Source: Lota lota
Lineage: Eukaryota > Chordata > Actinopteri > Gadiformes > Lotidae
Reading direction: 5' to 3'
Length of the DNA stretch: 64,000 bases
NCBI GenBank assembly: GCA_026745465.1
Contig: JACYXH010000107.1
Span: 38,247-102,246, forward strand
Shown: piece by piece, positions 22,551 to 64,000 of the stretch
Layout: each line of letters opens with the position of its first letter
Position numbering within the stretch: position 1 is the first letter of the stretch
Position numbers and translations under genes: made by a program
The notes under the pieces: model-generated
What the model saw: only the letters and a program-made list of their open reading frames with translations
The model's database searches: none
Told to the model about the DNA's origin: nothing

Positions 22551-25500
22551 TTACAGTTGCTTCCCAAAATCCTTAACCTTACACCGCTCCACCATCACCT
22601 TCAGAAACATGGTCACGTGAGGATTCTTGGCGATCTTGACCAGTGGCTCGTCATCGCTGCTGTCGCTCGATGACCCTTCATTAAAGCAACAACATTTGGT
22701 AGTCGATAAATCACCAGTGAGGCTGGCGACAATCAACTCATACAATCAATATTGAATTGTCATGTGATTAATTTCATATAAATATCAGGGTCAGGTAAGA
22801 ATATTTCCACAACGCGCCTTGACTATATTTAACTTTCTTGCTGATGCTTTCATTAAGTTGCAATTCATTTAGCAGAGGGTTCTACTAAGCATGTGCGAAG
22901 CTATTAGGAACCACACTCTAACATGCTAATGTCATAGTAACATGCCAGCTATGTCCTCTGGGCCTCTGTTTAATTGGTGAACTGAAACCTCTGTTGTATT
23001 TGATATATTCGAAGTCAAGGAGTCCCTAGTTCTTGTTCACACAAAGCAGCGCAACCTGAATTCACCTCTAATTGGGTCGCTCTGTTACCATTATTGCATG
23101 CACTCTGTCTTTTCATCTTCTTGGTGACTGTGGCCTTTCCTGATGCTCCTTGTTGGTTATTCGTGGGAGTTTGGCCTCTCTTCTCGGGCCTCTTGCCATT
23201 CCCTTGCGGCAGACTTGTGTTTGTCGCGTCTTTCAGTGGCTTTTTTAACAGGTTGATCAGAGGTTCATCGTCCGAGCTCTCAGCTGCGATTGCTGTTCAA
23301 CAGAAATCACAACAGTCACATCGGGAAAGGGGGTCTTCTGATCGGTAATACAAGGGGACATCGGTGCAAAGTAAAACAACCAAAATAACCACAAAGGAAA
23401 CACTGACATCTAACTTTAGATTCTTGTTGGTTCCGTCCTAGGAGAGCTGTTTTTATTATTATTACTTGAACTAGCATTATGTAGCTGTAATACCATGCGT
23501 CTTGTTTGCCATTGTGGGGGGCTTTGATGTAGACCTCTGGGCCGGTGTGGACGTAGTCTTGGTCTTGGTGGTGGTCTGGTCCTGCTTCCTGATCAGGTTC
23601 ACCAGCGGCAGGTCATCATCAGAGCTTCCATCCAAGGACACTGTGTCTGGGAAATGACAAACGCATAGACCAGCTGATATCAGCTGATACTCTTTGAGGT
23701 AGGGCCGGACAGGACTCCCAGCCAAAAGGCACTGGGTTCGATCCCCAATGGTTGTAGCCTGAGTGTAGTCATCCTGCTCCTTAAAGATCAGTATCTCAAT
23801 TCACTGTAAGACGCTTTGGATATACGCATTTGCTAAATGAAGAAATACTCAAATAGTATTCGCAAAACTAAATTATATAGTCAAACCTTGTGAGTCCATT
23901 ATTTTCCTTATGAACATAATTAATAATGTAGTTTTGGTGGCTACCTTTTGGCATGTCTCTCTGAGGTTGTGGTTTAGGTTTCCAGCTCTTCGGTGAAGGC
24001 CTGTGGGCTGATGGGCCCTTGGTCTTCTTATGCGTCTCGCAGTCCGAGTCGTCACTGGAAGACACTTGATATGGAGGGAAAAACAACACACTTTTCAAAT
24101 ACTGTTAAGAAAATGTATACATATATACGACGACAATAACATTGGCATTCAGTCACGTGAGACTATTAAAGACCAAGTCAATTGCTCTTAAACAATCCAA
24201 GCATACAATTACATTCGGAGTCATTTAAAAAAAGTGCTGCACTATCAAGTTTTGAAAGGAGAAAAAATCGAATGGTCCAATTGCAGAGTAATCCTTTGAC
24301 AATATAGACCTCACTTAGAGGTTCATCATCTGAGGACGAGGCATCCTCCACAGGTTCTGTGTTGGACAGGAGAGGAAACGAGCCAACGAACACATGAGCA
24401 CCACAGGATGTGATGTAGGTAGGTCCTCTATTTAAATTCAAGGCAGGTCAGAATCAGATTTATTTTGTAATTTAGTTTTGTAAGTAGACCTACCCATACA
24501 AGGAATTTGTCACAGTATGCTGGTTTAAGGTAGAGAAATACAAACAAATGTATTATATAAATACACAGTAATACACATTTTTTAATAAACAATATGAAAT
24601 TAAACATTAAATTAAACATCTGAGATTTTGGAACTTCTCAAGGCTGAGAAATAATGAAGATTTATTTTCAGATTATAAAGTATTTCCACAATAAAAATCA
24701 AGTTTAGTGGTAAAGAAGAGTCACATATGTGGAGTAATGCTATCATTTATTCTCAAGTGTAAAGACGACTTCACCTGTTCTTTTGTAAGTTCTGCGGCTG
24801 CTCTTCAACTTGATCTGATTTGCTTCTGTTTTCTTTGCAGGACGAGACTTTGTAAATTTGCTCAATGGTTCGTCATCTGAGGAATCATCTGTCCAACGCA
24901 ACACAAAGAAGTGATAGAAAAGCTACGACATTATGAATCAAAATCAAACCTGGAAACAGCTTATGGCTAAAAGGGTGAAATATATCCTTGCAGTTTCCCT
25001 GTACAGTATGCCTTCACAATAATAAAACGTTATTCAAGAAGTTTACAGTGAAACCCAGGATGTCTTTATTCCACCTACCATCATGTTGTGTTTGTGGCGC
25101 CTCAGAGAGGAGGGTCTGATCTGCTGTCTTCTCAGACGGTTTCTCATCCTTTGGCCTCTTCAGTAAGTTCACCAGAGGAACATCATCATCAGAACTGTCC
25201 AGAACTGGGAGGACCAAACGGATAACAGATTACCAAAGGCAGTGATATCCAACACAAGGCAACACTGAAACTATGACTTTCTGTCATTACATTCATGTTC
25301 TGCGGTTGTGTTCATTTACTTTTTAAGCGCATTACAAATAAAACAATTGTTGCAAAGAGCTTTACAAAAACCTAAAATATATAATGTATTTAAAAGGCAT
25401 TATGCTTTACTTATTGGACAAGTACCATTTATTTAATATTTGTGACATTTGTCAAATATATATATTTTTATCATATTATATTTGTTACTTTTAATAAATA

Positions 25501-28472
25501 AAACACGTTTACACTTTGACTTTAATGTGTAATTTGTCAAATTTAAAGAGGCGTCACCTGCTGTTATTTTACACATATGGACGCGTCTAGATCGGTTCTG
25601 ATTGGCTTTCTTTGCTGAGCAACGCTTAGCTACTTTGGACAAGGGTTCGTCATCTGAGGAGTCTCCTGTCCAACACAACACAGGGAATATACAGTTATGG
25701 ACACATAAATAAATCTAGTATGAAATGTAACACATCCTGGAAACAGCTTAAGACAGCTAAATTGAAATGTACCCGTGTCATTTCACTGTAGAAGATTATT
25801 TACAATATTGTGAAAGGAGTAATGTAAATAATGTATTATCAGGCACTATGATTATTGTTATTTTATTCCACCTACCCTCATGTTGTGTTTGAGGAGCCTC
25901 AGAGCCGAGGGTCTGACCCGCTGTCTGCTCAGATGGTTTCTCATCCTTTGGCTTCTTCAGTAAGTTCACCAGAGGAACATCATCTTCATCAGAACTGTCC
26001 AGAACTGGGAGGACATAAAATGGTAGATGATCAATGATCAAAGCCAATAACATCTGATAGAATTTATTGGTCGTATTGAAACTTGATTTAAATTCCTTCC
26101 ATTACGTTCACACTCTGTGTTTTGCTCATTATATTCCTACGCATGTTGTAATAGAAAATAGTAGAAAATAGCTTTAAGAAAACATAAATATGTATAATGT
26201 ATTTAAAAGGGCATCATTATGTTGTACACTGACTGTATACACAGTAACGCAGTGACTTGAAATACAATTACATTTTCTTCAAATGGTGTTACGTTTAAGA
26301 GGCTTTACCGGCAGTTTTTTTACTCCTACGGCTGGTCACTTTGTTCTGATTCTCTGCTGCTTTCTTCGCTGAATGGGTCTTGGACGTCTCTGCCAAGGGT
26401 TCGTCATCTGAAGAGTCGTCTGTCCAATGAACACAAAGAAGATAAACTGGTTGGACCCATGACGTCTTAAAACTCACACCGTCAAATGTTTTATTCCACC
26501 TACCCTCATGTTGTGTTTGAGGAGCCTCAGAGCCGAGGGTCTGACCCGCTGTCTTCTCAGGAGGTTTCTCATCCTTTGGCCTCTTCAGTAAGTTCACCAG
26601 AGGAACATCATCTTCATCAGAACTGTCCAGAACTGGGAGGACATAAAATGGTAGATGATAAATGATCAAAGCCAATAACATCTGATAGAATTTATTGGTC
26701 ATATTGAAACTTGATTTAAATTCCTTCCATTACGTTCACACTCTGTGTTTTGCTCATTATATTCCTACGCATGTTGTAATAGAAAATAGTAGAAAATAGC
26801 TTTAAGAAAACATAAATATGTATAATGTATTTAAAAGGGCATCATTATGTTGTACACTGACTGTATACACAGTAACGCAGTGACTTGAAATACAATTACA
26901 TTTTCTTCAAATGGTGTTACGTTTAAGAGGCTTTACCGGCAGTTTTTTTACTCCTACGGCTGGTCACTTTGTTCTGATTCTCTGCTGCTTTCTTCGCTGA
27001 ATGGGTCTTGGACGTCTCTGCCAAGGGTTCGTCATCTGAAGAGTCGTCTGTCCAATGAACACAAAGAAGATGAACTGGTTGGACCCATGACGTCTTAAAA
27101 CTCACACCGTCAAATGTTTTATTCCACCTACCCTCATGTTGTGTTTGAGGAGCCTCAGAGCCGAGGGTCTGACCCGCTGTCTGCTCAGGTGGTTTCTCAT
27201 CCTTTGGCCTCTTCAGTAAGTTCACCAGAGGAACATCATCTTCATCAGAACTGTCCAGAACTGGGAGGACATAAAATGGTAGATGATAAATGATCAAAGC
27301 CAATAACATCTGATAGAATTTATTGGTCATATTGAAACTTGATTTAAATTCCTTCCATTACGTTCACACTCTGTGTTTTGCTCATTATATTCCTACGCAT
27401 GTTGTAATAGAAAATAGTAGAAAATAGCTTTAAGAAAACATAAATATGTATAATGTATTTAAAAGGGCATCATTATGTTGTACACTGACTGTATACACAG
27501 TAACGCAGTGACTTGAAATACAATTACATTTTCTTCAAATGGTGTTACGTTTAAGAGGCTTTACCGGCAGTTTTTTTACTCCTACGGCTGGTCACTTTGT
27601 TCTGATTCTCTGCTGCTTTCTTCGCTGAATGGGTCTTGGACGTCTCTGCCAAGGGTTCGTCATCTGAAGAGTCGTCTGTCCAATGAACACAAAGAAGATG
27701 AACTGGTTGAACCCATGACGTCTTAAAACTCACACCGTCAAATGTTTTATTCCACCTACCCTCATGTTGTGTTTGAGGAGCCTCAGAGCCGAGGGTCTGA
27801 CCCGCTGTCTTCTCAGGTGGTTTCTCATCCTTTGGCCTCTTCAGTAAGTTCACCAGAGGAACATCCTCTTCATCATCAGAACTGTCCGGAACTGGGTGGA
27901 CATAAATAAAATGGCATACAGCCTAAATGATCAAATATAGCTAAATATAGGCAATAAGAGATATTATTCCGCTTTATGTGAAACGACTTTCTTAAAGTGA
28001 AATACATTTTTATCAATGTTCCGTTTTCATTCCACTTTTGTCACTTCCCGCTTTTTCTTTTTACAATAGCCTGTTTTTGCATTCTATTTACACATTTGTT
28101 TTTCGCAGTTCTCCGGTTTCTTACGCAAATCCGACAAGAGCACAGCCTCATCATCTGAGGTGCAGGGGTCTAACCGCAAATGGAGCCCTATGGATGTGTT
28201 AAAGAGAGCACAAGGATGAGAGGTAGCTCATCATTTGTATTTTATAAACAAACCGCATCCAAGGATATCATGTATTCGATAGAAAGCAATATTAATGCGA
28301 GGCTTTTCATGTGGATTAAAATAACAAAAATATGCATATTAGAAATGTAACCCACATGTTATTGTGCTGTTACATAGGATAGGTTCACTCAATAACGTTA
28401 CAAGCTATTGAATGATTTACCTGAATTGTCTTCTTTCCGATGAGTATGGGATTTGTCTGTGACTTCATCCAT
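22551..28472 (-). CDS. Unidentified SSDDEPL-repeat nuclear-type protein with amplified exon pairs
   Basis: Function unknown. Exons, 5' to 3': 28421-28472, 28125-28187, A1 27760-27891, B1 27565-27675, A2 27132-27260, B2 26937-27047, A3 26504-26632, B3 26309-26419, A4 25876-26004, B4 25558-25665, A5 25079-25204, B5 24775-24888, 24315-24356, 23945-24064, 23494-23646, 23089-23292, 22551-22675. They give 652 aa starting MDEVTDKSHTHRKEDN. Every internal exon is phase 1-1, and each from exon 2 on carries an SSDD-type acidic cluster. A exons read DSSDEDDVPLVNLLKRPKDE; B exons read DSSDDEPLAETSKTHSAKK. The clusters fit casein kinase 2 consensus sites, followed by Lys/Arg-rich linkers; no enzyme domain is visible. 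The last exon ends SSDDEPLVKIAKNP then a short helical-looking tail. SSDDEPL also occurs near the C-terminus of the chromatin protein DEK, and human DEK neighbours KDM1B, so a DEK-derived origin is possible (inference). I see no SAP domain. Exon structure is my hand model. Confidence 0.75.
23698..23843 (+). mobile_element. tRNA-derived SINE
   Basis: A B-box-like GGTTCGATCC lies at 23734-23743, and the tail resembles 'gacgctttggatatacgcatttgctaaatga'. It sits in an intron of the SSDDEPL-repeat gene. Confidence 0.7.
25876..27891 (-). repeat. 628-bp tandem duplication array carrying exon pairs
   Basis: A-type exons begin at 25876, 26504, 27132 and 27760 (low-coordinate ends): three spacings of exactly 628 bp. 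B-type exons at 26309, 26937 and 27565 show the same 628-bp spacing. Introns are copied too, nearly base for base, for example 'aagccaataacatctgatagaatttattggtc' type text near 26041, 26669 and 27297. Copies differ by only scattered substitutions. Confidence 0.95.
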
Positions 28473-29452
28473 TTTAAGCAGCATAGACAGCAGGGGACAA
28501 AACGAGGTATTAAGAACGACACTTTTTATTTGAATTTAATTTTATTCACCATAGAAGGCGGTTTAAAAAGTTTAAGCGCCCTGTCGCACTTTGATGACGC
28601 ATAACGACAGTACTTCTGTGGACATCAACACATTACGTCATGTAATGACCGCGTATCATGAAACAATGGCGTCATACTGTATTCAATTTAATATATTTAT
28701 TATAATAAAGTATTGAGGCAGGGATGCGTTGGCAGTTATAAGCTTTTTTTTTATTACACACATTCAGAACAAATAGTGTATGATAGGCCATGGTATAAAT
28801 TATTTGAAAGGTGTAGCCTTTCCCTGATTTTCTTTAAGATGGCCTTTGAGCACATCCAAAAAAGGAAGCATTATTATGGATGTAGTGCTGGTATAATCAC
28901 TTAAATAGGAAAAACAAAATAACCAAAATCAAAAAGTGCTATAACAGAAATACTATTGCTTCTAAACGTGTGGTCTTTTCTGTTCACAACACATGAACAT
29001 TACCAATTTAATGTTTAACGGTATTTCAAACAGCCTGGTTCCCCAAACTTAAATCGTCTAATCTCTCCGCTACAAAAGGGTATCTAGTACACTATTCACT
29101 AAACTGGAAATACAAACTTTGTTTCTATTAGATGGGCTTCCTAATGAACATAAATATTTTCTTTCCCCCATCAACCGAATATTACATGGGTAATAGTTTG
29201 AGACTTGAGAAAGTGCTATAATCCTTGCGGAAATAAATAAAGAGCTAGCCCCTGACATACATGATCTTCTTCATGTTGGAAACAGTTTTCTGCCAGTCTG
29301 TACACATATTACAATAAGAGTAGCAAAAACACTGTTTTTAAAGAGGAACAATCCAAATGTAACTCAGTACAGGTTGAACAACAGTGGCTTGTGTCGTACT
29401 GTGTGACCCGTGAGTGTGTGCTGGTGTTACGGGTGCCTTGTGGGGTCAAGTT
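28473..29452. other. Intergenic region: KDM1B 3' flank and SSDDEPL-gene promoter side
   Basis: KDM1B ends at 29453 and is transcribed towards lower coordinates. AATAAA on the minus strand is possible at 28750-28755 and 28696-28701. The 5' flank of the SSDDEPL gene follows. AT-rich; no further gene was recognised. Confidence 0.5.

Positions 29453-39341
<9,889 letters not shown>

Positions 39342-54672: not shown

Positions 54673-64000
<9,328 letters not shown>

Follow-up and report, generated by a model that had tools for sequence, protein, structure and literature searches.

Recent in-frame amplification of a 628-bp exon pair in a Lota lota gene encoding a putative multi-module CK2-type scaffold

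Introduction

Two described systems come closest to the gene reported here. The first is that of Treacle and NOLC1: exons 6A-16 of TCOF1, the Treacle gene, are described as encoding 11 CK2/PKC motifs (PMC7957619), and KBTBD8 is reported to bind CK2-phosphorylated motifs in TCOF1 and NOLC1 with an affinity that rises with the number of motifs; in competition only fragments with at least six motifs were retained, and NOLC1 function needed at least seven (PMC6057744). The condensation of Treacle is described as being governed by charge distribution (PMC11996177). The second is the KIV-2 repeat of LPA, in which two exons plus their introns are arranged in tandem, with reported copy numbers per human allele ranging from 1 to over 40 (PMC6314250).

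Here we draw attention to a gene family of fishes, with automatic names only in the entries compared, by way of a member in Lota lota that, judging from its anatomy, appears to unite these two designs. As in Treacle and NOLC1/Nopp140, disordered serine-acidic CK2-type modules are predicted to alternate with basic stretches in its product, and as in LPA KIV-2, a frame-safe two-exon unit is repeated in tandem. The unit is of 628 bp in Lota as against 5.6 kb in LPA KIV-2, and the kringle is a folded module, in contrast to the probably disordered module of the Lota protein. No sequence relation of Treacle and NOLC1 to that protein was detected: LisH, Treacle and SRP40_C (the latter two being the names of domains of the TCOF1/NOLC1 family) are unmatched in 26 members of the fish family at E<=1. 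How the number of motifs matters in multisite phosphorylation has been explored with truncated or mutated proteins, e.g. those of TCOF1 and NOLC1. A natural and repeated addition of exon-encoded modules, one set of which is possibly still polymorphic, would make the effect of module number testable both within and between species.

Results and discussion

A single open frame from symmetric exons

The gene lies on the minus strand of the 64-kb window (the whole stretch of Lota lota DNA analysed, to which all coordinates refer), and its 17 predicted exons join into a single open frame of 663 residues, or 664 codons counting the stop (Table 1). Each of the 16 introns is of the GT-AG type. The length of every one of the 15 internal exons is a multiple of three, and all of them are in phase 1-1, the phase given in the original prediction. 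Thirteen exons (3-14 and 16) are candidates from an automated search for symmetric exons flanked by plausible splice sites, in which alternative ends were frequent, while the positions of exons 1, 2, 15 and 17 were set by reading, each resembling the sequence of relatives. The nearest AATAAA on the same strand is found 888 bp beyond the stop codon, which, like the weak donor of exon 15, is counted against the gene model, and the 2 kb scanned past the stop codon contain no ATTAAA.

Given the uniform 1-1 phase of the internal exons and the similarity of adjacent units, exon pairs can be added or removed without damage to the frame, be it by unequal exchange or by replication-based tandem duplication. 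That units could be gained or lost in this manner had been claimed beforehand, and it is borne out at the sequence level: removal of exons 5-11 in silico leaves the frame open, with 383 codons counting the stop. Judged by its sequence, the locus encodes a functional protein, its exons presumably being spliced as predicted; that it is a pseudogene or a non-spliced repeat with an accidentally open reading is scarcely credible in light of the 663-residue frame, the homologues and the constraint described below.

Table 1. Features of the Lota lota gene and of its surroundings in the window
Feature	Positions	Strand	Remarks
Whole gene	22551..28472	-	17 predicted exons
Exon 1	28421..28472	-	start codon, MDEVTDKSH..., context AAAATGG; placed by reading; N-terminus resembles Muraenolepis MDKVTD by eye
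Exon 2	28092..28187	-	TSDDEAVLLSDLRKKPENCEK; placed by reading; resembles Muraenolepis SEDDAVPLSELLKKLEKNCEK by eye
Exon 3, VNLLKRP type	27760..27891	-	3' part within young array, 5' part older
Exon 4, SSDDEPLAE type, young	27565..27675	-	identical to exons 6 and 8
Exon 5, VNLLKRP type, young	27132..27260	-	
Exon 6, SSDDEPLAE type, young	26937..27047	-	identical to exons 4 and 8
Exon 7, VNLLKRP type, young	26504..26632	-	
Exon 8, SSDDEPLAE type, young	26309..26419	-	identical to exons 4 and 6
Exon 9, VNLLKKP type, young	25876..26004	-	
Young tandem array, 628-bp register	25861..27875	-	~3.2 units
Short introns of young units	27676..27759, 27048..27131, 26420..26503	-	84 nt each
Exon 10, older SSDDEPL type copy	25558..25665	-	
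Exon 11, older VNLLKRP type copy	25079..25204	-	
Exon 12, older SSDDEPL type copy	24775..24888	-	
Exon 13, 42-nt	24315..24356	-	ASSSDDEPL; hardly more than a single SSSDDEPL cluster
Exon 14	23945..24064	-	SSSDDSDCETHKK
Exon 15	23494..23646	-	SSDDDLPLVNLI; weak donor CATG/gtattaca; placed by reading; aligned with relatives' DDVPLVNLI
Exon 16	23089..23292	-	ESSDDEPLINLLKKP; 53/66 residues identical to P0069
Exon 17	22551..22675	-	stop codon; conserved C-terminal segment KNPHVTMFLKVMVERC; placed by reading; helix predicted here in one relative
Lota gene with amine-oxidase gene	22551..36758	-	Lota gene directly downstream
19-bp minisatellite	33249..34517		~67 copies
Tc1-like transposase pieces	55387..56482	+	first piece 55387..55878

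A young tandem array of exon pairs

Four exons of the PLVNLLK type and three of the SSDDEPLAE type recur within this model in steps of exactly 628 bp throughout, and each added exon-pair unit contributes 80 amino acids in frame. The 628-bp register has a sharp boundary at 25861 and extends to about 27875 (Table 1), in-register identity being at background beyond; at the right-hand edge a 3-bp length difference breaks the register, and diverged homology continues out of register by eye. The three full units differ pairwise at 7, 6 and 3 of 628 sites, with 3, 4 and 1 differences in the 388 intronic sites (0.8, 1.0 and 0.26%), 4, 2 and 2 in the 129-nt exon and none in the 111-nt exon. Beside the array lie exons 10-12 as older, diverged copies; nucleotide identity (gaps counted) is 67-68% in the SSDDEPL type, and copies of the VNLLKRP type are 88-91% identical. 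The original prediction had described just such a recent in-frame amplification within an SSDDEPL-repeat gene, with four A and three B exons at 628-bp spacing, introns copied almost unchanged and older A and B copies alongside; its coordinates and steps are correct, and the near-identical units, the open 17-exon model and the homologues all agree with it. It requires adjustment at the outermost A exon (exon 3), whose 3' part belongs to the young array and whose 5' part lies outside: this exon is one codon longer than the other VNLLK-type exons of the array and its upstream intron is diverged. The homologues, the purifying selection on the old copies and the apparently independent amplifications elsewhere in fishes go beyond that prediction.

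Near-identical tandem units are a generally recognised hazard in assembly, and the extra units might be the product of mis-joined repeats or merged haplotypes. We regard this as very improbable: every young unit has private variants, the array is only 2 kb long and thus below long-read length, and internal repeats are present in the database proteins of several relatives, themselves assembly-derived. At one variable site the four copies read G, T, G, T in turn, a pattern that could have come about by the duplication of two units as a block, by exchange between units or by recurrent mutation. Divergence between two alleles in the herring is given as 0.32% (PMC5894186), and the youngest unit pair, at 0.26% in its introns, does not exceed this figure, whereas the other two pairs lie above it. 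Since the youngest pair is no more diverged than two alleles of a large marine fish population, it is plausible, from the single assembly at hand, that the number of units segregates among individuals.

The short intron of the young units, being 84 nt long and thus a multiple of three, has no in-frame stop, so that its retention would keep the frame too. Its older counterparts are 210 nt long with five stops and 190 nt long with one.

Selection on the exon copies

The old exon copies are under purifying selection. Between exons 9 and 11, nonsynonymous differences (6/95 sites) are rarer than mismatches in the introns flanking the older pair (102/455 aligned sites, gaps left out; p 1.7e-4), and synonymous divergence (4/28) shows no difference from those introns (p 0.48). 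Between exons 4 and 10, synonymous differences (14/21) exceed nonsynonymous ones (17/75; p 3.5e-4), and the same test gives p 8e-4 for exons 4 versus 12 and p 0.009 for exons 10 versus 12, synonymous and nonsynonymous counts having been rounded before testing throughout. Among the three full young units, three of the four variable exon sites alter the protein, and no protein-level constraint is detected over these four sites; the new copies may therefore be neutral.

These observations bear on a competing explanation that we consider a real possibility, though not a probable one, namely that the gene is genuine and its disordered region can accommodate modules in any number, the count wandering by unequal exchange with no functional effect. 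Besides the protein-altering changes in the young units, such drift would accord with a module count that spans 4 to 14 over the 45 labels compared below and with the rapid change of the remaining protein, whose mean column identity is 26% over 26 sequences. It is opposed by the selection on the old copies, and by certain module residues that vary little or not at all across 26 and 31 sequences.

An uncharacterised family of fish proteins

A search with the predicted protein recovered 57 proteins at E<=1e-3, the best being from Muraenolepis orangiensis (E 2.2e-56); the 51 named matches are all from fishes, presumably all teleosts. A profile search for distant relatives, which scored only the 7982 candidates with most shared words, yielded 41 proteins, and a shortened query 65; the named matches of the profile search are likewise from fishes, except for a topoisomerase 1 entry (P0068, E 9.9e-4), with which a further match (P0067, E 2.8e-6) has a Pfam accession in common. 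The open frame from ENA that matches exon 16 (P0069) continues, by eye, into sequence like that of the introns of the Lota gene; with the Muraenolepis match it would point to a gadiform-like fish. On the basis of these sequence matches, the gene is a member of an uncharacterised fish family, "nucleolar protein dao-5-like" by automatic name, with conflicting names across its database entries (dao-5-like, nucleolin, NOLC1, DEK-like and even Msh3).

Serial SSDDEPL-type modules are common to the Lota gene and to relatives such as Muraenolepis NHX12_023327, Epinephelus LOC117263011 and salmonid "DEK-like" entries. Many members also have in common with it SSDDDVPLVNLI and ESSDDEPLINL modules close to the end, and the family and the Lota gene share a C-terminal segment of the HPQVTKILRIILERCD type. 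Both features that characterise membership, i.e. the series of modules and the conserved C-terminal segment with RC, are present in the Lota protein, the feature list having been drawn from the compared proteins themselves. A pattern for this segment, written after some of the sequences had been viewed, was matched by all but three of the 58 proteins; among these three the segment can be recognised by eye in the Lota protein and P0003, and P0002 lacks it. The C-terminal alignment comprises 15 C-termini.

Known domains offer little by way of classification: 26 members matched 12 Pfam families at E<=1, none of them in more than 3/26, and 31 members had no match in NCBIfam, which is built for bacteria and archaea. 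The CEP152 PLK4-binding region (PF25769) scored 24.3 bits (cut-off 21) in the Lota protein, with no single stretch passing and with a match in 1/26 members, and was set aside as a probable effect of composition. No paper on a fish dao-5-like protein was found, the sole match concerning shrimp neuropeptides, and the family is absent, going by titles and the opening of abstracts, from the matches listed on exon duplication and tandem repeats.

Repeats and module counts across fishes

Self-comparison of 58 proteins (the 57 relatives and the Lota protein) identified long internal repeats in 11, from seven sources: the Lota gene, Muraenolepis, three Epinephelus species, Anabas and one further contig. 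For comparison of counts, one record per label was retained (45 of 77) after removal of isoforms, partial records, topoisomerase-like records and most unnamed ones. The internal repeat score is at least 27 in six of these 45 labels and at most 14 in the other 39. By one pattern the Lota protein has 14 acidic-serine modules, the highest of the 45, as against 4-13 in the others (4-9 in 40 of the 44); a second cluster pattern gives 15 clusters in the Lota protein.

The repeating units also differ. The Lota protein has its own 80-residue unit (97% identity over 204 residues). In Muraenolepis the repeat offset is 116 residues (99% over 203 residues), the Epinephelus proteins have offsets of 185-219 (88-93%), and the Anabas protein one of 82 (97% over 30 residues). 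Identity among VNLL modules is 83-96% inside the Lota protein and 64-83% between these and the modules of Muraenolepis, which are themselves of two types with 66-100% identity to one another. This difference in unit make-up between lineages, with the relatives' proteins taken as database gene models, argues for separate amplification events and suggests recurrent amplification in Muraenolepis, Epinephelus and Anabas. The three groupers may reflect one common event.

Protein character and proposed mechanism

The Lota protein is acidic, predicted to be disordered, and probably nuclear. Of its 663 residues, 123 are acidic and 110 basic; it has 40 S/T-x-x-D/E sites, and its charges are segregated (z 8.4 against 200 shuffles; the 45 records span 3.1 to 11.0). 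Disorder is read from the fold prediction for a relative, P0007, made with 30 others in the alignment, in which mean pLDDT is 45.4 and none of 399 residues reaches 70. The single predicted helix of at least four residues in that model (350-363), itself of low confidence, falls inside the conserved C-terminal segment.

Nearly every internal exon of the model encodes one module, consisting of a CK2-type acidic serine cluster (e.g. SSDDEPL or SSDEDDVPL) followed by a basic linker, and the recent run of near-identical 628-bp, 80-residue units in Lota lota would have arisen by the exchange or tandem duplication discussed above. The predicted product is a disordered scaffold with patterned charge that is probably located in the nucleus and has a short, conserved helix at its C-terminus. 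CK2 might phosphorylate the SSDD clusters, partners might bind the phosphorylated clusters multivalently, and the number of modules might then set avidity or a threshold, as demonstrated for TCOF1 and NOLC1. By this analogy, the protein would be a multivalent CK2-dependent scaffold that gains two clusters with each duplicated exon pair. On balance we consider it somewhat more likely than not that the locus is a functional gene for a disordered scaffold of exon-encoded CK2-type modules, similar to Treacle and NOLC1 without membership of their family, and subject to frame-safe change in copy number. A dosage dial for CK2 phosphorylation or chromatin binding, as put forward in the original prediction, would be plausible on this view. 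A more far-reaching proposal, which we think unlikely, is that exon-pair number acts as a segregating and fast-mutating dial: alleles would differ by whole CK2 modules, the passing of a threshold in module number (six to seven for TCOF1/NOLC1) would alter partner capture or condensate behaviour, and the dial would have been turned independently in several fish lineages.

Relationship to DEK and genomic neighbourhood

Binding of the SSDDEPL modules to histones or chromatin partners in the manner of DEK, with more modules allowing more binding, is an alternative that we find doubtful. The C-terminal profile matches Protein DEK chains at SEDSSDDEPLIKKLKKPP (E 0.0011), the motif common to DEK and the Lota gene being SDDEPLIKK, and some salmonid entries are named DEK-like; this match, however, covers only 18 residues, and the Lota sequence alone gives E 0.17. 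Further, DEK's own domains, SAP and DEK_C, are not among the 12 Pfam families matched by the 26 members at E<=1, and the full profile matches no PDB chain at E<=0.1. Membership of the DEK family was accordingly rejected, leaving only the 18-residue motif.

The surroundings of the gene also bear on DEK. In a Pfam scan of 10 six-frame pieces of the window, seven matched models: INTS8 TPR, Dpy19, amine oxidase, Na/H exchanger and Tc1-type transposase HTH scored above the cut-offs, and one Rossmann-type and one SWIRM piece below them. We take the neighbours to be INTS8, DPY19L4, KDM1B and SLC9A. The Lota gene lies between the Dpy19 and amine-oxidase genes. The latter, which contains the SWIRM piece and is presumably KDM1B-like, is situated directly upstream (Table 1). 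Human DEK adjoins KDM1B; this neighbour and the SDDEPLIKK-like module together make a DEK-derived origin of the fish gene possible. No paper was found that links DEK with SDDEPL, nor one on DEK/KDM1B synteny.

Other features of the window include a minisatellite inside the KDM1B-like gene region, with long open frames in several phases, and two Tc1-like transposase pieces, of which the first has HTH_Tnp_Tc3_2 above the cut-off and HTH_SB just below, and the second is known from its translation only. The window has 45 tandem-repeat rows, partly overlapping, and perfect short repeats make up 3.4% of its bases; codfish genomes are described as repeat-rich (PMC5894186), with which the simple repeats of the window agree.
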